Source: Candidatus Aminicenantota bacterium (GTDB lineage Bacteria > Acidobacteriota > Aminicenantia > JAMOAD01). Taken from it: a stretch of 33,022 nucleotides of DNA. Numbering within the stretch: the first letter of the stretch is position 1; every line of letters begins with the position of its first letter. The notes beneath the pieces were generated by a model. The model was not told where the DNA came from and made no database searches. It saw nothing but the letters and a program-made list of their open reading frames with translations. The DNA is taken from the NCBI GenBank assembly GCA_027031485.1, contig JALVQI010000141.1, positions 1-33,022 of the forward strand. The letters are read 5' to 3'. Of the stretch, positions 7,339-31,945 are shown piece after piece. A program made the position numbers and the translations under genes.

Positions 7339-7923
7339 TAACAATATTTGTAACTCTCTATAAGTAATTTGAATGCTTATATATCTAGTTTGAACATAAC
7401 TTTAAAAATACAATATTTTTATTTGTAATATATTTTAACCTTTACTTTTTTAATAAAAGAACAAAAAGGGGATATTTTCATTTATTCTTGACTGTTGTAC
7501 TTATAATCCTTTCTCAATTACCCTTTATCAATCAAAAACCCCCAATCCAAATTCCCCAAAACCTCATTTTTTTTATCAACAACCTTCCCCAAATCCGCAG
7601 AGCAGATGTTTAAAGAGATATTATCCTCAAATTTCCAGCTTTGTTCCTGATTACGTAAATCTTTGGGGAAATATCAGAAAGCAAATATTTATGCTCTTTT
7701 GATTTTCAGTTTTATTATTTGTTTTTGTAGAAATTTTGAGGGTTTGAAACTCTTGTTATTTATGTAAATACAAACTTCTCCGTCGTCTACTATTTCAGTA
7801 TAGAGATGGGGGAGTTTCTAAACTCCTAAATGAAATAAAGGATTTGAGTAAAGTGAAATGAATATAGATACCCACTTGTTGTACAAGTGCAATAGCATCG
7901 AAGCGAAGAATTATGGGCCTCCA
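7339..7923. other. Gap with decayed sequence
   Basis: No intact gene. It holds one readable minus-strand remnant (listed separately) and a small palindrome near 7877-7890 (ACTTGT...ACAAGT). Otherwise AT-rich and featureless. Confidence 0.4.
7518..7660 (-). pseudogene. Unidentified C-terminal gene remnant
   Basis: On the minus strand a clean frame reads PKDLRNQEQSWKFEDNIS, then ICSADLGKVVDKKNEVLGNL, then DWGFLIDKG and a stop at 7518. An in-frame stop lies just upstream and no start or ribosome-binding site precedes it. The amino-acid composition looks like real protein, not random AT-rich translation. I do not recognise the family. It may belong to the same lost restriction locus as the next remnant. 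Confidence 0.35.
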
Positions 7924-8300
7924 CTATATCTTTTTTTTTAATTTTGTTAATCCCAGTTTTTCTTTAAATACTTCAATGAATTGGCTTTTTCTCCCTTAAT
8001 TTTAGAACAGGAAACCAATTAGCTTGTATCTTTTTCTCCAAATAATCTCGGCGGCTCAATCTTAATCTTGTATTTTTGTTCAATTTCTTCTAAAAAATCC
8101 TTTTTCATTGATCTGTTTTAATTAGAGGTTCTCCTTTTGCTTCTATGAAAAGATGGTATTGTTAAATATCATTGGAATTTTCTTTCTTTAAAAAACAACA
8201 CAAAATCAGCCTCCATAGCTTTCCGATCCCATATATATGTGTTATAAAAAGATGCTCCTGATTTTGGTTTGATTTCTACCCTTTTTCTCCTTCTTTTCTA
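7924..8300 (-). pseudogene. Decayed C-terminus of a type III restriction (Res)-like enzyme
   Basis: Read on the minus strand across several frameshifts: VEIKPKSGASFYNTYIWDRK, then AMEADFVLFFKERK; next frame HLFIEAKGEPLIKTDQ; then KKDFLEEIEQKYKIKIEPPR with LFGEKD; then YKLIGFLF; and finally QFIEVFKEKLGLTKLKKKI with a stop at 7924. The DFVLFF and IEAKG elements match the PD-(D/E)XK core (D...E-x-K) of the C-terminal nuclease domain of type III Res/DEAD-box restriction subunits, in the right order. At least three frameshifts and the missing helicase part show it is dead. Its upstream edge lies against the attC site at 8308. Confidence 0.6.
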
Positions 8301-8307
8301 TTTTTTT

Positions 8308-8380
8308 GTCTAACGTGACAGCTTAGGGGAGCCTTTGTAGCGTCAGCGGAATAGCGGATAGGTGGAGCGCTTTGTTGGGC
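8308..8380 (-). other. attC recombination site A
   Basis: 73 bp. On the minus strand it begins with the R'' box GCCCAAC, which overlaps the TAG stop of the 342-aa gene, and ends with the R' box GTTAGAC. Both fit the RYYYAAC/GTTRRRY consensus exactly. The interior is GC-rich and imperfectly self-complementary, in contrast to the AT-rich surroundings. Confidence 0.7.
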
Positions 8381-9408
8381 TATTTATCAGTTTTAAATGC
8401 GTCTTTATACGATTGTATTCTATCAAGTTCTTGTTGAACTCTTATTCCAAGATACCCTCTTTTAGGCCAGTCAAGCCAAGATAGCTCCAAGTTAAAATTA
8501 AAAAGCCTGTGTAACCCTTGATATAAAGCCTTTGGAACCTCGTTATCCCTTTTGTGATTCTGAAAAACTACATGGTCTGTACGGGTATCAGTCACAACAA
8601 AATCAATCAAAGAATTTGACCAGAACCGACCATCATATTCCATTTTGTATAACTTAGACGGTAAGCCAATCATTGAAAGCTGATCAAAAATATATGTGCC
8701 TTTTTTTGCATAAAAAGTATTCCAAAAAGCACCAGATGTTATCTCCTCTTGAAAAGCGCTTATCGGAAGAAATTGTTCCATCCCAAGATCTAGAATCCAA
8801 AGCATTGGATCTTTAAGATCTACCCATAATATATTGATAGAGTTTTTCTCAAATTGGTGCTCCTTCTGTTTTATTGCAGCCAGTTTTGACACTGCCTCGC
8901 CTTGAACAGTATCTATATTCCTTTCTGGCCACCCAAAGGGAAAAATCTCATATACTTTACCTTTGACTTTATCAGTACCAAACGATTCGTGTTCTAAGGT
9001 ATGTCTTTTTGTTCTATGCTGAGGGGTATTAACTTCTATTCTGATTGTATTTCCATCTATATCGATCGAAAAATCACTTCCTTTTTTTCCAGATTTTATA
9101 CGAGAACCCCAAACCCATATAAGCTCACCATAAGCCCTTATCTCTCCCAATGCTGCAGATACATTTGATACATCCTCATCCTCTAAAATTATTTTTGCTT
9201 TTTCTCTTAGCCATGATTCATTTTCATCTTTTACTAATTTAACGCATTTGTCCGTTCTCATAGCAACATCCTTGGTTCTGTCGTTCTCCCCAAGAATAAG
9301 TGAGATTAGAGGATGAGTCTTATCGATAGAATACTTTAGCCCATTTGCGTAAGGCCAAAATATTTCTCTCAAGTTAGGATAGTTTTTAAATTTTTCTTTG
9401 AGGCTCAT
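8380..9408 (-). CDS. Cassette gene: putative PD-(D/E)XK-like protein
   Basis: 342 aa. A plausible degenerate nuclease core is GSDFSIDIDGNTIRIEVNTP: D112 on one strand and E125-V-N127 on the next, with Asn where Lys is usual, preceded by a Glu-bearing helix (ALGEIRAYGELIW). The rest is mixed alpha/beta and rich in Trp, ending ELDRIQSYKDAFKTDK. No signal peptide or membrane segment. The gene is bounded by attC sites on both sides. Its ATG lies 15 bases after an R' box and its stop overlaps the next R'' box, so it is a complete cassette. Less AT-rich than neighbours, suggesting foreign origin. I do not recognise a named family. Confidence 0.7.
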   Translation of the reverse strand: MSLKEKFKNYPNLREIFWPYANGLKYSIDKTHPLISLILGENDRTKDVAMRTDKCVKLVKDENESWLREKAKIILEDEDVSNVSAALGEIRAYGELIWVWGSRIKSGKKGSDFSIDIDGNTIRIEVNTPQHRTKRHTLEHESFGTDKVKGKVYEIFPFGWPERNIDTVQGEAVSKLAAIKQKEHQFEKNSINILWVDLKDPMLWILDLGMEQFLPISAFQEEITSGAFWNTFYAKKGTYIFDQLSMIGLPSKLYKMEYDGRFWSNSLIDFVVTDTRTDHVVFQNHKRDNEVPKALYQGLHRLFNFNLELSWLDWPKRGYLGIRVQQELDRIQSYKDAFKTDK

Positions 9409-9423
9409 TTAATAATCCTTTTA

Positions 9424-9496
9424 GCCCAACGACCAAGCTCACCTGCACCCTCGCAGGCGTAGCCGAGAAGGCGTCAGGTGCAGCAGATTGTTATGT
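9424..9496 (-). other. attC recombination site B
   Basis: 73 bp. On the minus strand the R'' box is ACATAAC (one mismatch to RYYYAAC) and overlaps the TAA stop of the methylase gene. The R' box is GTTGGGC, a perfect GTTRRRY. The L arms pair as GCTGCACCTG against GCTCACCTG, leaving one unpaired base, the extrahelical-base arrangement that sets attC strand choice. Confidence 0.75.
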
Positions 9497-10378
9497 GGAA
9501 AATTGTAAATATTTTTTTATCTCTTTCGTATTAGTTGGATTAGAAATATTTGGTACTGATAAATTATTATTAAATATAATAATTTCTTTGCCCATTGAAG
9601 CGCCACCTGCAAAATAATTTAGTGAATAAATATTTTTCTTAAAATTATTATATAAATTTTTTATTAGTGAAACATTATCATATGATATGATCCAATATTG
9701 ATTTTTTAATTTTTTTAATAGAGTAGCAATACTCTTATGGTCTTCATAATTATAGAAGTTTAAATATAGGTTTTTGCCTTTCTCATAATATGGAGGATCT
9801 AAATAAAATAGTGTCTTTCGCGGAAGGTCTTTATATAGTCTTCTAATTATTATTAAAGCATCTTCATTGTATAAGTGAATTCTATTTTTGTAATTTGCTA
9901 TCAATTGTATTCTATTTATCAATTCTTTCTTATTGAATCTTGCGTCCATTTTCCATTTACCATTTTGGTTTTTACCACCTATTAATCCAGCGTTTAATAT
10001 ACCTGACCTATTTGTACGATTAAGATAGAAAGTAGAAAATCCAACTTCTAATATTGAATATTCATATGATTTTAAATATATATTCTTTTGTTTTCGCCAT
10101 TCATCTACACTTATATCTGTGTCAAAAACTTTTTTACATAATTCCTCAGTAAAATTCAACACAGAATACCAAAAACAGTAAATATTAAAATCTAAATCGT
10201 TAATATGAATATCAGAAACATATTCGTTTATAAGTAAATCCAATGCAATTGATGCGCCACCTGCATATGGTTCAACATAATTTCCATCAATCAAGAGGTT
10301 CTCTTGTAAAATAAGTTTAATAAAATTTGATAATTTACCTTTTCCACCAGGATATCTCAATGGAGAATAATATCTCAT
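9491..10378 (-). CDS. Dam-like (D12 class) DNA adenine methyltransferase
   Basis: 295 aa from the ATG at 10378. The track start is a TTG inside the upstream gene, so I reject it. Motifs of the D12/Dam family are clear: RYPGGKGKL near residues 8-16, AdoMet-binding EPYAGGAS (36-43), NRTNRSGI (120-127) and catalytic DPPYY (194-198). It transfers a methyl group to adenine N6 in a specific DNA site, probably as a modification enzyme. It begins 2 bases after the stop of the ParB-like gene, so the two are co-translated within one cassette. The stop lies in attC site B. No cognate endonuclease is certain, but the next cassette encodes a nuclease-like protein. Confidence 0.85.
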   Translation of the reverse strand: MRYYSPLRYPGGKGKLSNFIKLILQENLLIDGNYVEPYAGGASIALDLLINEYVSDIHINDLDFNIYCFWYSVLNFTEELCKKVFDTDISVDEWRKQKNIYLKSYEYSILEVGFSTFYLNRTNRSGILNAGLIGGKNQNGKWKMDARFNKKELINRIQLIANYKNRIHLYNEDALIIIRRLYKDLPRKTLFYLDPPYYEKGKNLYLNFYNYEDHKSIATLLKKLKNQYWIISYDNVSLIKNLYNNFKKNIYSLNYFAGGASMGKEIIIFNNNLSVPNISNPTNTKEIKKYLQFST

Positions 10379-10380
10379 AT

Positions 10381-11724
10381 TTACATTAAATCCCAAATTT
10401 TTTGAATGAAAGGTTCAATATTATCCCAGGTAATTTTTAAATCATTTTCCATAGGATTATAATTTTTATTATGAACATAAGCATTAAAGGTATTAATTGA
10501 AAATATGGAATTGGGACTTGCGACCATTGTGTTAATAGGTTTTAATTGATGCTTCGTTAAGTGACCGTTTTTTCCCAAGTATTCTGAAACTGCTTGGACC
10601 TTTTTAATCAATTTTGCATTGATATTAACATTTATATTTTTATTTTCTATAAATGAATCCAAACTTAATTCAATAAAAACTCTAAATGTAATCGCGGCAG
10701 CATTAATGTATTCTCTTAAATCAAGATCTTTTAATTCTCTATAAATTTTATTTATACGAATTTGATTAATATGTATGATACAACTCTTTGGAATAATCGT
10801 ATTTCTGGTTGTTGATAAATGCTTACTTTTTTTCTTCTCTTTTTCTTCAGGCTTTATAGTGGTAGGGGGCGAAGAAGTTATTATTTCCCATTTCGACGTT
10901 TTCTTCGTTTTATCAGGTAACTCTGAATCTTTAAACGTTTCAATATAATTTGCTCTATCATCTTTGTAATAAATATTTTTTACAGTAAAATCATCTTTTA
11001 GTAAATCTTTTATTATTTTGGTAAGAGGTTTAATAATCTCTTTAGGTGGTAAATGGGAAATAATCCTACCATCTTTTATTTCAATTCCAATAACTTCTCT
11101 TATATCTGGATCAGTAATAAGACGTTGAAGACTAGATATTGGAACCTGTCCTAATTTTTGTCTTATATCATCATTAAAAAATTCACTCTTATTAAGAAAA
11201 TCTATGATTTGTAAGGAATATTTTGATTTGCCTTCAAATCTTTCTTCAAATCGAGCTTTTTGCTGTGCATCCCAACTTACTATGCCAATACCTTCATTTT
11301 CACCAGTATGTTTTAATTTTATCCATCTTAAAGCATCTTTTTCATCACTAAAAATAACACAATTTAATTTCGTTATAGGATTAGATTTAAACTGTCCTGA
11401 CAATTTTCGAAATTTGTTTAAAATACTTTTTTTGCTTTCAGGAATTAAATCCGGGTTATTAAGTAATTTTAGAACAGTCACTCTTCTGTTCCCTTCTAAA
11501 ACATTGTATTTTCCATCGTTTTTAGGATGATGTGTCACAATAATTAAATCAGAAGGGTTAACACCATTATCAATAATATCTTGAGCTAATTTTACAAGTT
11601 TTTCTTTTTGATTATCTATCATTAAAGATATAGCTTCTCTTTGAGTTCCTACCATTTCAAAACGCGGATTTTCAGTATTTACCATTAATAGAGTAACATC
11701 TAATAGACGAATTTCATATTTCAT
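10381..11724 (-). CDS. ParB-like nuclease-domain protein
   Basis: 447 aa from the ATG at 11724, preceded by AAGGTGG. The track start is a GTG three codons earlier. The N-terminus has the ParB/Srx-like fold pattern: NTENPRF (16-22), a helix EKLVKLAQDIIDNG, then VLEGNRR (75-81), the counterpart of the G-E-x-R-R box. The C-terminal part is unrelated to chromosomal ParB: a helical middle, a charged linker (KPEEKEKKKSKH) and a domain with ITFRVFIELSLDSFIE. Such proteins occur beside methylases in accessory loci and may steer DNA binding or cleavage. An extended -10 (TGGTATAAT) lies just upstream, so it heads the cassette operon. The family of the C-terminus is unknown. Confidence 0.7.
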   Translation of the reverse strand: MKYEIRLLDVTLLMVNTENPRFEMVGTQREAISLMIDNQKEKLVKLAQDIIDNGVNPSDLIIVTHHPKNDGKYNVLEGNRRVTVLKLLNNPDLIPESKKSILNKFRKLSGQFKSNPITKLNCVIFSDEKDALRWIKLKHTGENEGIGIVSWDAQQKARFEERFEGKSKYSLQIIDFLNKSEFFNDDIRQKLGQVPISSLQRLITDPDIREVIGIEIKDGRIISHLPPKEIIKPLTKIIKDLLKDDFTVKNIYYKDDRANYIETFKDSELPDKTKKTSKWEIITSSPPTTIKPEEKEKKKSKHLSTTRNTIIPKSCIIHINQIRINKIYRELKDLDLREYINAAAITFRVFIELSLDSFIENKNINVNINAKLIKKVQAVSEYLGKNGHLTKHQLKPINTMVASPNSIFSINTFNAYVHNKNYNPMENDLKITWDNIEPFIQKIWDLM

Positions 11725-11910
11725 ATCAACCACCTTTATTATACCACATAATATAAGATCAAGTGTAATAATGAAAAAAGCAAAGGTTGCTCTCCGGGAC
11801 TACCTAATCTATGTTGCACATTAATTTTTAATTATTTGTTATTAATTGTTTTACTCATAATTTCTCCTTATTTTGTTTTCTTGTATATGTTGCTATTTTG
11901 GCAACAAATA
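11725..11910. other. Spacer between intI remnant and first cassette (possible attI zone)
   Basis: This is where an attI site would lie. On the minus strand a TTATGTGG string sits just upstream of the cassette promoter and resembles the GTTATGTG junctions in the second array, but with A in place of the leading G. A ribosome-binding site plus an 8-codon ORF (MSKTINNK) and a TGTTGC/GCAACA palindrome are also present. None of these proves an attI. Confidence 0.25.
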
Positions 11911-12180
11911 CTAAAAATCAACGGGACCAAATCCACTTTTTAAATCTTTCTCATGTACTATTTTTACCTTTTTCAAATGTTCCTTTAAAGAATGAACAAT
12001 TTTCTTAGGTAACATAGTAGTACTCTCTTTTTCTCCCATTTCAATAGAATGCTTTTTGTTATGAAAAAATATAAATCTTTTACCCCAATTAATGTAAGAT
12101 CCTTCAGTCTTTAAACTATAATGTTTAACTCGAATAACTTATCTTATTCGGTCTAAAAGTTTTGGTGTATTCTCTCTCAT
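11911..12180 (-). pseudogene. intI: Broken integron integrase (IntI) remnant
   Basis: One frame of 90 codons on the minus strand. It opens MRENTPKLLDRIR, hits an in-frame TAA, then continues VIRVKHYSLKTEGSYINW and GKRFIFFHNKKHSIEMGE, which matches the N-terminal core-binding domain of integron integrases (LL-x-x-V-R-x-x-I-R-x-x-H-Y-S-x-R-T-E). It then jumps directly to TTMLPKKIVHSLKEHL and KKVKIVHEKDLKSGFG, the segment after the first catalytic Arg box in IntI. So about 120 residues, including that Arg, are deleted, and the HxxR...Y end is missing too. It cannot be active. It points the same way as the cassettes. Confidence 0.78.
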
Positions 12181-13297: not shown

Positions 13298-13330
13298 CTG
13301 CCCTTTTTTATATTATACCATACGACCCTC

Positions 13331-13390
13331 TCAAAATATCACAAAACCTGTATCAAATAGTGATAGAGGTTAGAGTTTTTTTGAAAAAAA
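13331..13390 (-). repeat. Three-copy upstream element, copy 1
   Basis: About 60 bp, nearly identical to copies at 15960 and 18884. The core (13345-13371) is a 27-bp inverted repeat with arms AACCTGTATCA and TGATAGAGGTT (10 of 11 pair) around a 5-base centre. An A-tract lies on its far side on the minus strand. It sits 48 bp before the ATG of the 218-aa gene. Confidence 0.75.
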
Positions 13391-13548: not shown

Positions 13549-13601
13549 ATATTTCTTATTAAACAGAAAATTGCCACTCTTGATATGAATGGGATGATTA
13601 A

Positions 13602-13631
13602 TGTCAAGTATTTTGAGCAAAATACTTGACA
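13602..13631. promoter_or_regulatory. Proximal operator of the abiE operon
   Basis: Perfect inverted repeat with 13-bp arms (TGTCAAGTATTTT / AAAATACTTGACA) and a 4-base centre. It covers the -35 box of the promoter below, so a bound repressor would block RNA polymerase. AbiEi proteins are known to repress their own promoter through inverted repeats. Confidence 0.75.
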
Positions 13632-13654
13632 ATATGCAAAAAAAAGATTATATT
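13626..13654 (+). promoter_or_regulatory. Promoter of the abiE operon
   Basis: TTGACA at 13626, 17-bp spacer, TATATT at 13649. The predicted transcription start falls at or next to the ATG at 13661, implying a leaderless mRNA and excluding the upstream start (13601) given by the track. Confidence 0.75.
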
Positions 13655-13660
13655 TTCAGT

Positions 13661-14386
13661 ATGAATGTTGCAAAGAGAATAGAAGAAAAAATTAATAAAA
13701 TTGAAGAAGGTGATATTTTTACATATAAGGATCTTTTAATAAAAAAAGAAGAATATTTTGCTGCTTCAAAAACAATTGAAAGATTAATAAAAAAAGAAAT
13801 AATCAAGCGTATTTCAACAGGTACTTTCTACAAACCAAAGAAAACTATCTTTGGAGAATTAAGACCAAATGAAGAAAAAATAATTACTCCTTATTTATTT
13901 AAAGATGGTAAAAGAATCGCCTATATAACAGGTTTGTTGCTGTACAATAAAATGGGATTGACAACCCAAGTACCCCGAGTTATAAGTATTGCAAGTCGCG
14001 AAAAAAGGATTTATATATCAAGAGGAAACATAAAAGCAAATGCCGTAAAAAGTTATGTGGAAGTTACGGAGGAAAATTTCCAATATCTCCAGATATTGGA
14101 TGCAATAAAAGATTTTAAAAAAATCCCGGATTTGGATTTAAAAAACGGAATAAAAATATTATCTAATATCTTAAAAAAATTATCGAAAGAAAATATTGAA
14201 AAACTTGTAAATTATAGTTTAAGTTATCCCCCGAGGGTAAGGGCGCTACTTGGTGCTATATTAGAAGAGATTGGCAGAAAAGAAAATCTTGAAAAATTAC
14301 AAAATAGCCTGAATCCCTTTTCAGTTTATAAATTGGGGATAACAAAAGAAATATTACCTACCGCTGAAAATTGGAAAATAAAATGA
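13661..14386 (+). CDS. abiEi: AbiEi-type antitoxin / repressor (type IV TA)
   Basis: 241 aa from the ATG at 13661. The track ORF starts at 13601, inside the operator and upstream of the promoter, so its first 20 codons are not transcribed from it. The N-terminus (RIEEKINKIEEGDIFTYKDL, then AASKTIERLIKKEIIKRIST and GTFYKP) is the winged-helix domain of the DUF6088/AbiEi antitoxin group. Next comes a region with RIAYITGLLLYNKMGLTTQV that matches the following AbiEi domain. It should bind the two palindromes upstream to repress the operon and counter the AbiEii toxin without binding it stably. It overlaps the toxin ORF by 4 bases (ATGA). Confidence 0.8.
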   Translation: MNVAKRIEEKINKIEEGDIFTYKDLLIKKEEYFAASKTIERLIKKEIIKRISTGTFYKPKKTIFGELRPNEEKIITPYLFKDGKRIAYITGLLLYNKMGLTTQVPRVISIASREKRIYISRGNIKANAVKSYVEVTEENFQYLQILDAIKDFKKIPDLDLKNGIKILSNILKKLSKENIEKLVNYSLSYPPRVRALLGAILEEIGRKENLEKLQNSLNPFSVYKLGITKEILPTAENWKIK

Positions 14387-15366
14387 ATTTACATAAAAAC
14401 AAGGAAATTTTTAAGGAAGCGATAATTGCAACATCGCAATTAAAAGGCATTGCTGAAATATATATTGAGAAAGATTATTGGTTAACACTAATACTGAAGA
14501 CCGTATTTGAAAGTGAGATTGGTAAAGAGGTTGTTTTTAAAGGTGGAACAGCATTATCAAAATGTAATAGTTTGATAAAAAGATTTTCGGAAGATATTGA
14601 TCTTGTTGTATTGAGAAATCCGAAAGAAACGGGAAATCAACTGAAAAAGAAACTTAAAATAATCTCAAAGTTTGTGGAAAAAATTGTTCCGGAAATTGAG
14701 GTTGAAGGAATAACAAACAAAAAGGGGATGATTAGAAAAACTGTTCATATTTATCCGAAAATATTCAAAGGATTATTCGGACAAATTAAAGATAATTTAA
14801 TTATAGAAGCAACTTGGCTCGGAAGTTTTGAGCCCTTTGAAAAAAGAAAAATTAATTCTATGATTTATGAGATGATGATTGAAACAAATCAGCATAAAAT
14901 TGCTGATGAATACGGACTAAATCCTTTTGAAGTAAATATTTTAAGCCCGAAACGGACAATCTGCGAGAAGATAATAAGTTTAGTCAGATTCTCGTACACA
15001 GAAAACCCAATAGAAGATCTTAATAATAAAATCAGACATATTTATGATATAAATCAAATGTTAAAAGATGAAAACATTAAAATTTTTTTTGAATCGGAAA
15101 AATTTGATAATCTGTTTATAAGAGTAGCAAATGATGATATGTTAAGTTTTAAAAGTAACAATGAATGGTTAAAAAATCATCCCAGCCAAGCTATAATTTT
15201 TAAAGAAAGTAATAGTGTTTGGAATAAAATAAAGACAACTTATTTTTCCACTTTTAGCAAACTGGTTTACGGAGAATTACCAAGCGAGATTGAGATTTTG
15301 GAAACACTGAAAAAAATATCAAAAAGACTATCAAAATTAGATTGGAAAATAAATTACAAAAAATAA
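14383..15366 (+). CDS. abiEii: AbiEii/AbiGii-family nucleotidyltransferase toxin
   Basis: 327 aa from the ATG at 14383 (ATGA overlap with the antitoxin stop). The track start at 14371 is a TTG. The polymerase-beta nucleotidyltransferase signature is clear: VVFKGGTALSK (50-60) followed by RFSEDIDLVV (67-76), where D71 and D73 are the metal ligands. The SPKRTICEKIISLVRFSY segment and the helical C-terminus fit the family. AbiEii toxins modify cellular RNA, with tRNA 3' ends known for some members, and stop growth. The pair gives abortive phage defence and stabilises the region. All visible catalytic residues are intact, so the toxin is probably functional. Confidence 0.85.
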   Translation: MNLHKNKEIFKEAIIATSQLKGIAEIYIEKDYWLTLILKTVFESEIGKEVVFKGGTALSKCNSLIKRFSEDIDLVVLRNPKETGNQLKKKLKIISKFVEKIVPEIEVEGITNKKGMIRKTVHIYPKIFKGLFGQIKDNLIIEATWLGSFEPFEKRKINSMIYEMMIETNQHKIADEYGLNPFEVNILSPKRTICEKIISLVRFSYTENPIEDLNNKIRHIYDINQMLKDENIKIFFESEKFDNLFIRVANDDMLSFKSNNEWLKNHPSQAIIFKESNSVWNKIKTTYFSTFSKLVYGELPSEIEILETLKKISKRLSKLDWKINYKK

Positions 15367-15885: not shown

Positions 15886-15959
15886 TATCCCTCCTATCTT
15901 TTATTTTTTAATTTCACTAATTATCTTATCCATTTAATCTCCTCAGCTTTTTTATATTC

Positions 15960-16017
15960 TCAAGATATCACATAACCTGTATCAAATAATGATAGAGGTT
16001 TGAGTTTTTTTAAAAAA
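15960..16017 (-). repeat. Three-copy upstream element, copy 2
   Basis: The same 27-bp inverted repeat (15974-16000) with one base different in the centre (AATAA in place of AATAG), preceded by ATATCACATAACC and followed by TGAGTTTTTTT on the plus strand. It is 89 bp before the ATG of the 134-aa gene, further away than the other two copies. Confidence 0.75.
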
Positions 16018-18255: not shown

Positions 18256-18855
18256 TTATTTTTCTGGATTAAAAAACTCTTTGTATTTTACTCTTAAGTA
18301 GGCTTGGAGATATAGAATAATTCCGATATTGTAAAAGGCTTTTTTGCTGCATACATAAGCTGCATAATTTTCCAATTTCTCGTATAATCTTTCAATAAAA
18401 TCTTTTTTAAATCCATTATTAAAAGCTTTTTCCATAAATTCCCTTTTAATACTCTCCAAATTTTTTGTCTTCTTTCCAAGTGATCTTCTCATTGATAGAG
18501 CTTCCTCTTTTGAAAAGCCTCCGAATCTTCTTATAATTTCCTCAATCTGCTCATGATATAAAATCAATCCGTAAGTTCCCTCTAAAATTTCCTTTAAAAT
18601 AGGATGCTCATACTGAACTTTTTTATTAATCCTTTTTCTCTTTATAAACTCTTCACTTATCCCTAAGGATAAAGGCCCGGGTCTTGAAATAGCCAATAAG
18701 TGCACTAAATCATCAAATTCCTCTAATTTCATTTCTCTAACAACTTCTTTTATGATTTCCTTTTCAATCAAAACATCAGTTTCAAAATTCCAGCTATTCA
18801 AAAATCTTAAAACATCTTTTTCATCTAAATTAATTTCAATAATTCTTTCCTTCAT
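18256..18855 (-). CDS. Stand-alone fragment of DNA polymerase III alpha (DnaE)-like protein
   Basis: 199 aa. From residue about 45 the sequence follows DnaE through the fingers region: FDDLVHLLAISRPGPLSLGI, then YEHPILKEILEGTYGLILYH with EQ, RRFGGFSKEEALSMRRSLGK, and LYLQAYLRVKYKEFF. The palm domain with its catalytic Asp residues, the PHP domain, the beta-binding and OB parts are all absent. The normally conserved N-K-S-H-A block is changed to SKKAF. It has a strong GAGGAGG ribosome-binding site, an open frame and the shared upstream element, so it appears to be expressed, not a random remnant. It cannot polymerise DNA. It may be a decoy, inhibitor or recently decaying fragment. Confidence 0.75.
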   Translation of the reverse strand: MKERIIEINLDEKDVLRFLNSWNFETDVLIEKEIIKEVVREMKLEEFDDLVHLLAISRPGPLSLGISEEFIKRKRINKKVQYEHPILKEILEGTYGLILYHEQIEEIIRRFGGFSKEEALSMRRSLGKKTKNLESIKREFMEKAFNNGFKKDFIERLYEKLENYAAYVCSKKAFYNIGIILYLQAYLRVKYKEFFNPEK

Positions 18856-18883
18856 TTTACCTCCTCACCTTTTGTTTACATCT

Positions 18884-18943
18884 TCAAAATATCACAAAAC
18901 CTGTATCAAATAGTGATAGAGGTTTGAGTTTTTTTGAAAAAAA
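18884..18943 (-). repeat. Three-copy upstream element, copy 3
   Basis: Inverted repeat at 18898-18924, identical to copy 1 in the 27-bp core, with a TTTGAGTTTTTTTGAAAAAAA flank (quoted on the plus strand in part: TTTGAGTTTTTTT). It lies 43 bp before the ATG of the DnaE-like gene. Confidence 0.75.
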
Positions 18944-27850: not shown

Positions 27851-27979
27851 GTATAACGGTTTAAATTTGCTATGTTTGGTGTTTTGAAACAATTTATTTT
27901 CAAACTGCCACTATTTAATTTTTACTATCATCCTCAATTTTAGCACTATCTGCCAAATGCAATATATTTGTTGTTAGCG
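27851..27979 (-). other. Possible long attC site F at the array end
   Basis: On the minus strand CGCTAAC overlaps the CPBP stop codon and GTTATAC lies about 120 bp further on. Inner segments CAAATATATTGCATTTGG and CCAAACATAGCAAATTT pair imperfectly. The length (129 bp) is within the known attC range, but the site is AT-rich and much weaker than C, D and E. Confidence 0.35.
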
Positions 27980-28849
27980 GTTCGTTGTTTTATTCCAATA
28001 TGGGTTTATTATATTTCCTTTTCTATGACTTAGAATTAAAAGAATAATTGTTGCAATTAAACAAAAAAGTGTTGCTTGAATTGAACCTTCCGGACCAAAT
28101 TGTCCTCCAGTAAACCACTCTGCTCCTTGTATTTTAGAAGTTATTAATGTTTTTGAAACTGCATTTCCTGATACATTGGCTCCAAAAATTGCAGATTGTG
28201 TAAAATTCCAAGCAAAGTGTATAGCAATTGGAAACCATAAATTTCTTGAATAGATATAAGCCGCAGCAAGTAGTAATCCCGCTTGAATTGCAAGACCAAT
28301 TCCAGTACTTATTGAACTGTTTGGATTTGCAAGGTGCAAGGCTCCAAAAATAAGAGCTGAAATTATTAGTCCTATATAGCTTCCTAATTTTTCTTCTATG
28401 ATTCTAAATATTATACCTCTGAATAAAATTTCTTCAAAAATGGCAGAACTAAAAGCCATAGTCAATGGTGGAATGATGAATAGAATAGGATTTATGGATA
28501 AAACAGAATATCCGCCTTTTAGATAAATTACTAATATTGTCAATGATTGTAAAATTACACCTAAAATAATTCCAGTAGTTAAATTTTTAATGATACCTTT
28601 TTTTGAGAATTCAGTAATTCTTCTTTTTTCATAAAATTTGTAAAGGAAAATATAAAAGACAATAGCTAAAATTGCGGAAATAACTCCAACTATCAAATGG
28701 TTTAATTCTTTTGTCATTGAAATTAATTTTAACAGTTCACTAAGGAAATACTGAGATACTCCATAGATACCTGCTACAACAATAATCCCAATTAATATTT
28801 TTGTCACAGGAAAATGTAAGATTTTCTGTCCGATGCTTTTTACTTTCAT
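27974..28849 (-). CDS. CPBP-family intramembrane metalloprotease (cassette gene)
   Basis: 291 aa from the ATG at 28849, which has GGAG six bases upstream. The track starts four codons earlier without a ribosome-binding site. About eight membrane segments. The CPBP (Abi/CAAX) motifs are complete: EEILFR (139-144), FGALH (168-172) and HFAWN (211-215), which hold the catalytic Glu and the zinc-binding residues. Bacterial members process or guard membrane proteins, bacteriocin immunity being the best-known role. The gene is the last complete cassette of the array: its stop codon TAA falls in a CTAAC box, and attC site C precedes its start. Confidence 0.85.
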   Translation of the reverse strand: MKVKSIGQKILHFPVTKILIGIIVVAGIYGVSQYFLSELLKLISMTKELNHLIVGVISAILAIVFYIFLYKFYEKRRITEFSKKGIIKNLTTGIILGVILQSLTILVIYLKGGYSVLSINPILFIIPPLTMAFSSAIFEEILFRGIIFRIIEEKLGSYIGLIISALIFGALHLANPNSSISTGIGLAIQAGLLLAAAYIYSRNLWFPIAIHFAWNFTQSAIFGANVSGNAVSKTLITSKIQGAEWFTGGQFGPEGSIQATLFCLIATIILLILSHRKGNIINPYWNKTTNR

Positions 28850-28890
28850 ATTATTCTCCATTTATTTATATTTTATATCGTTACAATAAC

Positions 28891-28968
28891 CGCTAACGTG
28901 CTGCGGGTATACGAAGCCACTATAGGTGGTTTGGGTAAGCGGAGCGAAGCGCATAACCGCTGTTATCT
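28891..28968 (-). other. attC-like site C
   Basis: 78 bp. On the minus strand AGATAAC (overlapping the TAA stop of the 184-aa gene) to GTTAGCG. The R boxes keep only the core AAC/GTT and fit the consensus poorly, but the arms pair (GCGGTTATGCG against GCGGGTATACG) and the 3' half matches sites D and E. Confidence 0.6.
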
Positions 28969-29517
28969 GCCGTTTTCATGATTCATCCTTTCTGAAGTTA
29001 AATCTATAGATTTGAGTTTAATCGAGTTGGCTTCTAGCCTTTTAAGCAATGAATAAAAAAGAGTCCAGCATTCTCTTTCTTTGAGTTTATTCTCTATTTC
29101 AATTCTCGCTTTTTGTTCATTACAATATCGAATATTTTTCTCAATTTGGAGATTTTCAACTTCTAATTTTAATTTCTCTTTGTTTAATTTCCAATTACTT
29201 ATTTTTTCGATTGCCTGCACTATTACCCAAATGGCACCAGAAGAAACAGTAACAACACTTAACATTAGTTCAACTGTAAGTGGGGATTCCTTAATTATCT
29301 TTAATGTTCTAATTCTATGTTCACCTTTTAATGGTCGTCCCCGCCTGTACCAAAAATATTGTGAGAACTGATAATCATAATATTCCTTTGCACAAAGTAA
29401 TAAAGAGAAATCATGCAGTAACTCAAAATCATAAAATAATGATGAAATATCTAAAAGATATGGCTTCTTCTCATCCTCAAACTCCAGCCTTATCTTAATG
29501 AAACTATTACATTTCAT
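28963..29517 (-). CDS. Single-span membrane / coiled-coil protein (cassette gene)
   Basis: 184 aa. A soluble N-terminal part (about 1-78) with FEDEKKPYLLDISSLFYDFE and YWYRRGRPLKGE-like segments is followed by one hydrophobic stretch, VELMLSVVTVSSGAIWVIVQ (about 80-100), and then a long charged coiled coil (LNKEKLKLEVENLQIEKNIR and on). The layout suggests a membrane-anchored sensor or effector with a cytoplasmic coiled coil. The ribosome-binding site AAGGAGG is perfect and lies just after the R' box of site D. The stop falls within site C. I recognise no named family. Confidence 0.65.
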   Translation of the reverse strand: MKCNSFIKIRLEFEDEKKPYLLDISSLFYDFELLHDFSLLLCAKEYYDYQFSQYFWYRRGRPLKGEHRIRTLKIIKESPLTVELMLSVVTVSSGAIWVIVQAIEKISNWKLNKEKLKLEVENLQIEKNIRYCNEQKARIEIENKLKERECWTLFYSLLKRLEANSIKLKSIDLTSERMNHENGR

Positions 29518-29540
29518 CTACTCACCTCCTTGAAAATGGC

Positions 29541-29617
29541 ACATAACGTGTTGCGGGTATCTGAAGTGCCGAAGGCGATTTGGGTGAACGAAGCGAACAG
29601 CAAACACGCTGTTAAGT
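29541..29617 (-). other. attC-like site D
   Basis: 77 bp. Minus-strand R'' ACTTAAC (perfect RYYYAAC), R' GTTATGT (one mismatch to GTTRRRY). The arms pair as GTGTTTGC against GTGTTGC, with one extra unpaired T. It begins about 17 bases after the stop of the DUF2726-like gene. Confidence 0.7.
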
Positions 29618-29633
29618 GAAGTTAGCATCTTTT

Positions 29634-30545
29634 TCATATTTCTATTCCATTTAAAGTTGCCGCTTTATAAAAAGCTAAGAGTTCCGCGATATTTTGTACA
29701 ATAATTAACGGTGAAGCTAACATTCCTTCAAAATTTCTTACCCAAGCTTGTTCTGTTACCTTTCCTTTAGGTGTTTCACATGATACCTCACAACCATGCC
29801 ATTTTATATCTTTCCATACTTTTTGCCTCTGCTTTATCCCTTCAATATCAAAAATATTTTTTATTTCTGGTAATTCTGGTATTGATAAATGTTTAGAACT
29901 AAGACCCGATATAATTCCTTTATTAATTAAGACACCTTCTATTTCCGCCGCTTTTTTAGAAATTGGATTCCATGTTAATTCTAATTCTATTTCTGCTAAT
30001 GTTACTAAATCCTGAATATATTCATAACGTTCGTACTCACTCATAGAATTTAAAGTATCTTTTGAATCCTCCAAATATTCATTTATTTTATCTCGAAATT
30101 TCATCTTTGCAATTGTCTCTCCAATAATACCATCGACAACTGCCAAATGAATTTTTTCTAATAGATACGTTTTCTCATCGTATGAAATTATATAAAATGG
30201 GAAGCGATGTTCCATCGCTATCTTCAGTTTCAATTCCAATTTCTTTTTTCTAAGCTGATCTTTCACAATTTGAATGTATTCACCACCCCTATTATAACCA
30301 TGACTCAATCCATCAAATTCAATACACAGAAGCGGTTTGTCCTCTTTGTCACATACAGTGTAATCGATGTTTGTTTTCAATAGGAAATCTCTTTCTTTAT
30401 GATTGATGTTTAATGTTTCAATATCAAAAATTTTGGTAAACGGTAATTGGGGGTATATATTGAAGTTATCTTTCCAGATTGAATTTAAGTGCCCAAAAAG
30501 CTCTCTTTCGTGATACCCATCAAGTACGCATTTTCTTAAGCTCAT
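29634..30545 (-). CDS. DUF2726-like PD-(D/E)XK-type protein (cassette gene)
   Basis: 303 aa. The N-terminal third reads NIDYTVCDKEDKPLLCIEFD, then GLSHG: D61 on one strand and E76-F-D78 on the next, followed by KDQLRKKKLELKLKIAMEHR and FPFYIISYDE. This matches the DUF2726-type restriction-endonuclease-like fold, in which Asp can replace Lys. The C-terminal two thirds are mixed, with WNPISKKAAEIEGVLINKG and a helical end LAFYKAATLNGIEI. No membrane segment. The gene is a complete cassette lying between attC sites E and D. The ribosome-binding site is AGGAAAG. Nuclease activity is plausible but not certain. Confidence 0.65.
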   Translation of the reverse strand: MSLRKCVLDGYHERELFGHLNSIWKDNFNIYPQLPFTKIFDIETLNINHKERDFLLKTNIDYTVCDKEDKPLLCIEFDGLSHGYNRGGEYIQIVKDQLRKKKLELKLKIAMEHRFPFYIISYDEKTYLLEKIHLAVVDGIIGETIAKMKFRDKINEYLEDSKDTLNSMSEYERYEYIQDLVTLAEIELELTWNPISKKAAEIEGVLINKGIISGLSSKHLSIPELPEIKNIFDIEGIKQRQKVWKDIKWHGCEVSCETPKGKVTEQAWVRNFEGMLASPLIIVQNIAELLAFYKAATLNGIEI

Positions 30546-30576
30546 AACTTACTCTTTCCTATGTTATACCAATTTC

Positions 30577-30664
30577 ACATAACGTGTGGCGGGTATCTGA
30601 AGTCCGAGCCGATAGGCGAGGATTTGGGTGTAGTGCAACGAAGCCAGATACCCGTCTGTTGTGC
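30577..30664 (-). other. attC-like site E
   Basis: 88 bp. Minus-strand R'' GCACAAC (one mismatch), R' GTTATGT. The arms contain a perfect 10-bp match, CGGGTATCTG pairing with CAGATACCCG. It begins 7 bases from the TGA stop of the HEPN-motif gene. Confidence 0.7.
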
Positions 30665-30670
30665 GAAGGC

Positions 30671-31945
30671 TCATCGTATCACCTCAGCAGTGTTAATGAT
30701 TATCTCTTCAGCTATAAATCTTAGCAAAGGAATTTCCATTAGCAATTTTCTATCATCCCTAAATGGCATGTATTTGGGTTTACCCCCTTCTTTGCTATGT
30801 ACAATAGAATTTCTTGTTTTGTATATTCTGTCTGCTATTTTTTTAAACACTTTTTCAGCATCAAATATTGAAAAATCAATAGAACTTCCTTGAGAAAATG
30901 GCACTTTATTATCCTTATAGTAATTTATCAATGATTCATCGTATGTTCTTAATTTATCAATAAGATCCTCTAACTTAATATACTTCACTATGGTCAAATA
31001 CAAGGCTTCCTGTTCGTTATATAATACATCTTCATCCTTGTATTTCATTTTTTGACTTATTAACTTAATTAAGTTATCTATATCTTTCTTTCTTTTATAT
31101 GAAAAATCAGGACTTGTTATCTTTGCTCTTATTACATCAATTAACTCTTCATGATATACGTCATAAAAGAAATGTTCAATAATATGATAAAAAGATAAAA
31201 ATTGAAGAGGTATGCTGTCGGTTGATACTGCCATTTGATAATGATATACGAGGTCAGAATTATAAACACGGCGAGGCGGTTCTATCTCCTCTGGTCTAGC
31301 GCGCCTTATCTTGCCAAATCTATATCGAGTAAGTTCATGCAGAAATCTTACCTCGATTATCGCAATATCCAAATTATAACTTAAATTGAAAAGAAATGCT
31401 GTTGCTAACCTAGAAAACTCTCTACTACTTCTAGGTTCTTGTGATTTAATCTTAAGTGTATATACACGAGGCATCGCTATTCTGCTTAAAAATTCAAAGA
31501 ATTCTAATTTTTCTTCGCCTATCTTTTCCCTTAAGATACGTAATGGAAAAAGCCGAAAAAAATCTCTTAAATCTTCAGGTTCCCTCAAGATTCCCAAAAT
31601 AAACAACAAGAATTCATTTGTTAGTGGAGATAATTCATATGTAATACCATTGGCTGTATCTTCTTTTAAAAGGTATTCTTCATCAAAGAAAATTCTAAAA
31701 GAAATCGGCCGAGAGATTTCAAATTTTATCAATGCCTCATATGAATATTCATCATACAAAATTGTCTCATCTTTGATTTTCTTTCTTTTTAAATTTTCTA
31801 TCAAATTTTCTACCGATTTTTTCCCTATTTTCCAATTTTTATCAAACCTTTCAAGAACCAAAACAAATTTATTCTTTTTTTCATAAATAGACAGATAAGG
31901 AAGGTTGCTCAATATTTTTTTAAAATCTTCTATGTTCTCTATCAT
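30671..31945 (-). CDS. HEPN-motif protein, possible RNase effector
   Basis: 424 aa. Near the C-terminus RIYKTRNSIVHSKEG carries R378-x4-H383, the R-x4-6-H motif of HEPN ribonucleases. The preceding helix segment LQFLSFYHIIEHFFYDVYHE and the long helical region (about 250-375) fit a HEPN or ApeA/MauJ-like C-terminal domain. The N-terminal 220 residues are mixed alpha/beta (KNKFVLVLERFDKNWKIGKK) and may sense a trigger. No signal peptide. It starts 2 bases after the stop of the HTH gene, whose end supplies the GGAGGG ribosome-binding site. attC site E follows its stop, so it could be a cassette or the first gene of the array. Confidence 0.65.
   Translation of the reverse strand: MIENIEDFKKILSNLPYLSIYEKKNKFVLVLERFDKNWKIGKKSVENLIENLKRKKIKDETILYDEYSYEALIKFEISRPISFRIFFDEEYLLKEDTANGITYELSPLTNEFLLFILGILREPEDLRDFFRLFPLRILREKIGEEKLEFFEFLSRIAMPRVYTLKIKSQEPRSSREFSRLATAFLFNLSYNLDIAIIEVRFLHELTRYRFGKIRRARPEEIEPPRRVYNSDLVYHYQMAVSTDSIPLQFLSFYHIIEHFFYDVYHEELIDVIRAKITSPDFSYKRKKDIDNLIKLISQKMKYKDEDVLYNEQEALYLTIVKYIKLEDLIDKLRTYDESLINYYKDNKVPFSQGSSIDFSIFDAEKVFKKIADRIYKTRNSIVHSKEGGKPKYMPFRDDRKLLMEIPLLRFIAEEIIINTAEVIR

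Follow-up and report, generated by a model that had tools for sequence, protein, structure and literature searches.

A probable chromosomal integron remnant with a PD-Lambda-5 cassette and a nuclease-like gene cassette

Two GC-rich palindromic sites in a 33,022-nucleotide stretch of a Candidatus Aminicenantota genome (contig JALVQI010000141.1, hereafter the window) raise the question of whether they are attC sites bounding a mobile gene cassette, and of what the gene between them might do. A first-pass annotation had read them in this way and had described the enclosed 342-aa product as a putative nuclease of no recognisable family. The comparisons described below put at roughly 85% the probability that the locus (Table 1), as far as its sequence can tell, is what remains of a chromosomal integron with mobile gene cassettes.

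Table 1. Coordinates of the features in the window
Feature	Position	Strand	Basis
Site A, attC of the nuclease-like cassette	8308..8380	-	R''=GCCCAAC, R'=GTTAGAC; stem decayed, 7/14 pairs
342-aa protein, unnamed family, putative PD-(D/E)XK-like nuclease	8380..9408	-	family alignment; D112/E125 core
Nuclease-like gene cassette	8314..9429	-	starts TTGGGC after G of site B R', ends at G of site A R'
Site B, attC of the upstream (PD-Lambda-5) cassette, intact	9424..9496	-	R''=ACATAAC, R'=GTTGGGC; 14/14 consensus pairs
First cassette, two-gene PD-Lambda-5	9430..11751	-	TTATGTGG (11744-11751) to G of site B
PD-Lambda-5 B, Dam-like adenine methyltransferase	9491..10396	-	PDLC04018, E=1.7e-120
PD-Lambda-5 A, ParB-like N-terminus	10381..11733	-	PDLC03998, E=5.9e-165; TIGR00180/TIGR03454 weak
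intI pseudogene	11896..12162	-	TIGR02249 fragments, E=4.8e-8 and 5.4e-5
attC-like elements, second array	28885-28976, 29535-29625, 30571-30672		each after a gene stop

One intact and one degenerate site

Both sites lie where the first-pass annotation had placed them, each 73 bp long on the minus strand (site B at 9496-9424, ACATAAC...GTTGGGC; site A at 8380-8308, GCCCAAC...GTTAGAC), and reading their R boxes against RYYYAAC/GTTRRRY returns the reported fit, exact at site A and with one mismatch at site B. The reported overlap with stop codons also holds: the 342-aa gene ends in a TAG (8380-8382) that has one base in common with R'' of site A, and the upstream gene in a TAA (9491-9493) that falls within R'' of site B. 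The single extrahelical base ascribed to site B has to be corrected, as its L stem has two such positions. The arms of this site form three pairs, an extrahelical base, six pairs, a second extrahelical base and further pairs, which is the pattern of the aadA1 and VIM attC sites; every consensus pair between L'' and L' is made, with the extrahelical bases at standard spacing.

At site A the complementarity of the L'' and L' arms fails, half of the 14 consensus pairs being lost. The arm duplex is estimated at -4.1 kcal/mol, against -12.4 for site B and -17.5 for the intact relative of site A in a second locus, L019, and the fold is not better than that of shuffled sequences (z -0.65). The homologous attC in that locus (L019:8088-8159) pairs fully. 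Since the boxes are kept while pairing, energy and fold are lost relative to this homologue, site A is read here as a degenerate attC that no longer folds properly and, by the pairing test, is not a working site.

Eight class 1 integron attC sites from annotated plasmids served as the reference set, and a scorer combining a position weight matrix with pairing was trained on these eight alone. Among 780 candidates in the window, site B comes out on top with a score of 52.2 and site A follows with 32.5, the third candidate reaching 18.1; the best value in 60 locally shuffled windows is 25.8, so that both sites exceed all 60. A covariance model on the minus strand, which the first-pass annotation had proposed as a check, was built from the same eight sites and two attC sites from L019. 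Over 69 kb it recovers site B clearly (46.2 bits, E=7e-9). Site A is recovered more weakly (18.5 bits, E=0.03). Both have ends exactly as given above, and with filters off in the 5 kb around the sites the two are the top matches, the next reaching 5.7 bits. The score of site A in this model is partly non-independent because L019 carries its homologue; the scorer trained on class 1 sites is the independent test. Across the entire 2.97-Mb genome the sole covariance match is site B (E=3e-7), and site A falls below significance at this scale. Such palindromes are therefore not spread across the genome, and their recurrence at random positions, which had been named as evidence against the attC reading, is not seen. 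An Rfam search returned nothing at site A or site B.

The failure of the arms of site A to pair, together with DNA similarity to L019 that ends at 8339 in local alignment, could also mean that the site is no attC, and that an R' box and a GC-rich stretch lie by chance beside a genuine R''. This is improbable, however, given that site A outscored every shuffled window after training on class 1 sites only, that its 5' half is homologous to, and aligns with, the intact attC at L019:8088-8159, and that its GC-rich stretch terminates at the R' box. Site A might also be a chimera of two attC halves, but the features common to the attC family also allow plain decay. A decayed attC is the preferred reading of site A, which illustrates that an attC remains recognisable from its boxes and from a relative after its stem has decayed.

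A copy of the cassette in a second integron

Scanning 84,980 genomes for the protein family led to L019 (contig WGBG01000120.1), from a Deltaproteobacteria MAG, which encodes a homologue 90% identical to the 342-aa protein. The match comprises the 1.1-kb cassette unit, with 92% DNA identity over window positions 8339-9446, and stops within the flanking attC sites; the rest of the two neighbourhoods has no other DNA match, and the neighbouring genes differ. The order in L019 runs from chromosomal genes (selA-, rlmH- and aroA-like by inspection) to an intact 373-aa integrase gene in the opposite reading direction, a 330-aa RAMA-domain gene, an attC, the 342-aa homologue and a second attC. The copy occupies the second cassette position next to an intact integron integrase, and the same unit is thus found elsewhere, among other neighbours and with the same ends. 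In the window the cassette starts with TTGGGC and ends with GCCCAA(C), its perfect complement.

The claim that two attC sites bound a gene cassette is accordingly borne out. It is regarded as proven because an independent copy with the same ends lies in another integron and an integrase pseudogene lies next door to the window copy. The two loci provide a clean two-genome case of a cassette transferred between bacteria with exact attC boundaries. Comparison of the two 342-aa genes gives a dS of 0.19 and a dN of 0.047, and the ratio of 0.25 indicates that the protein is under purifying selection. The host of the window and that of L019 appear to be distant, to judge from the MAG name and from GC content, which is 0.36 in the 342-aa gene, 0.39 in the L019 cassette region and 0.50 in the chromosomal part of the L019 host.

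The first cassette and the integrase remnant

The cassette that ends in site B encodes both subunits of PD-Lambda-5, a system that defends Escherichia coli (Vassallo 2022, PMC9519451). The A and B subunits are adjacent, as expected of this system, and their genes overlap as a complete two-gene unit. The ends of the cassette, TTATGTGG at 11751-11744 and CCACATAA(C), are exact complements.

About 150 bp upstream of this cassette lies an intI pseudogene that is transcribed toward the cassettes and consists of two in-frame pieces with stops. An N-terminal segment is joined to the intI-specific region with about 110 residues between them missing, the C-terminus is missing and stop codons are present. 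The IntI-specific piece is 54% identical over 37 aa to the IntI of a same-class genome. An intact intI above the TIGR02249 cut-off is found nowhere in the genome, which holds the pseudogene only, and no attI is recognised at the locus, where the first cassette starts at 11744-11751. In a same-class genome (L026; G059:C47:14000-30000), an integron has its intI flanked by attC sites on either side, which lie on opposite strands.

These features suggest a history in which a formerly active IntI captured cassettes at an attI beside intI. The cassettes would travel as circles, in which the start and end of a cassette join into one attC, and IntI would recombine the folded single-stranded attC at G|TT of R'. 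With this cut, each cassette would span TT(RRRY) to its own attC, a boundary visible in the window and in the independent copy in L019. The first surviving cassette would be the PD-Lambda-5 pair ending in site B and the second the 342-aa gene ending in site A. Later the integrase would have become a pseudogene and the stem of site A would have decayed; from these two losses it follows that the array is probably fixed in the present day, its genes persisting for their own function. The locus would then be a case of defence genes kept after the integron machinery died.

Further elements occur in the window. A second cassette-like array (27940-31945, minus strand) contains attC-like elements of another type that is nowhere else in the genome. 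One of its cassettes encodes a CPBP protease and has exactly complementary ends (start TTAGCGG, end CCGCTAA), and another of its genes (30671-31945) partially matches the PADLOC model for DzbB (E=1.5e-13). A short stretch at 7863-7915 resembles part of this element type and is perhaps another attC remnant. Site A is followed by a frameshifted remnant (7339-8307, minus strand) that looks by eye like the C-terminal part of a type III restriction subunit. The window also contains an AbiEi/AbiEii-type toxin-antitoxin pair (13601-15366), three copies of a 70-nt repeat (13319-13388, 15948-16017 and 18872-18941; 81-89% identical to the reference copy) and an isolated fragment of the DNA polymerase III alpha finger domain (18256-18855; PF17657).

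The 342-aa family and its relation to known systems

The 342-aa protein has no match in Pfam, NCBIfam, PADLOC or the PDB sequences, the last also searched with the family profile, and PHROGs gave nothing real. A poxvirus capping match (E=0.1) was discarded as noise. Neither protein nor profile searches found another copy in 396 genomes of the phylum, nor was one found in phages. The absence of a recognisable family therefore holds for named families, but a small unnamed family does exist. Its relatives, at about 23-28% identity, come from Burkholderiaceae, from Betaproteobacteria, Defluviicoccus, Nitrospinales and Bryobacterales MAGs and from two viral contigs.

All eight aligned members share D112, E125, Q169 and K180, and the invariant set also includes E89. 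The family motif, alpha (E89) - (P/S)D112 - E125-V-x, is like that of the PD-(D/E)XK nuclease superfamily, and the invariant residues fit a PD-(D/E)XK-like core that lacks the usual lysine. The PD...(D/E)xK motif itself is incomplete, as the Asp and Glu are invariant while residue 127 is Asn, Phe or Ala in all members and never Lys. The family further differs from the superfamily in lacking a profile match, and comparison by hhalign with three proteins of PD-(D/E)XK type yielded no signal above controls. The label of putative nuclease thus keeps the support of the motif pattern and of the gene neighbours, and loses that of a profile match and of a conserved ExK lysine. The substitutions at residue 127, and the replacement by Pro in the window protein and L019 of a lysine that six relatives have at residue 129, would suit a catalytically dead PD-(D/E)XK-like DNA binder or damage sensor. 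That alternative is considered unlikely: D112, E125, Q169 and K180 are nevertheless retained by every aligned member, and migration of the lysine is known in the PD-(D/E)XK superfamily.

The neighbours of the relatives include a type I HsdS with Upx in L020, a type II methyltransferase in L021, HEC-06/GmrSD in L025, and a DndB-like gene in L018 that is accompanied by an antirestriction gene; no convincing attC lies close to the distant relatives. From such genomic contexts, a defence role for the 342-aa protein is likely. In two loci (L020:2397-7990 and L049:5282-10860) there is an apparent three-gene unit of a 217-226-aa protein, the 342-aa homologue and a protein of about 1260 aa, which matches Upx in L020. 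The Dam-like methyltransferase directly adjoining the 342-aa gene, and the methyltransferase beside the L021 homologue, might indicate that the two cassettes happen to hold the halves of a single type II restriction-modification pair. This is very improbable, as the methyltransferase in the window is recognised as PD-Lambda-5 B and forms a complete two-gene unit with the A gene that it overlaps, the same cassette adjoins the RAMA-domain gene instead in L019, and most relatives have no adjacent methyltransferase. The 342-aa protein would most likely be an effector against phages or plasmids that cuts or binds their DNA on entry, and the chances that it is a defence nuclease are put at about even. 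It is a tentative proposal that the family represents an undescribed single-gene anti-phage or anti-plasmid nuclease with a rearranged PD-(D/E)XK-like site, spread by integrons between distant bacteria. The family, which is small and unnamed and has defence-like gene neighbours, is directly testable in E. coli.

Integrons were reported in 2025 to be libraries of anti-phage cassettes (Darracq, Kieffer, Getz; as summarised in PMC12409362). In the literature consulted, no description of the PD-Lambda-5 pair or of the 342-aa family as cassettes was found. The locus is a further example of defence cassettes in integrons, here decaying: its cassettes also encode anti-phage genes, whereas the host lineage differs. 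Its interest lies in the transfer evidence and the unnamed family, not in a new mechanism. Both PD-Lambda-5 subunits match those of the described system over near-full length, but that system is located in a prophage and the present one on an integron cassette (Vassallo 2022, PMC9519451). Treponema integrons have an atypical order in which intI is transcribed toward the cassettes, and T. phagedenis has lost intI with its attC sites left (PMC3607928). The window resembles these chromosomal integrons in its R and L boxes with extrahelical bases, its single gene orientation and its intI directed toward the cassettes, and resembles T. phagedenis in the loss of intI with attC sites remaining. In contrast to chromosomal integrons including those of Treponema (PMC3607928), two cassettes are left here, the stem of site A is broken and a remnant of intI is still visible.
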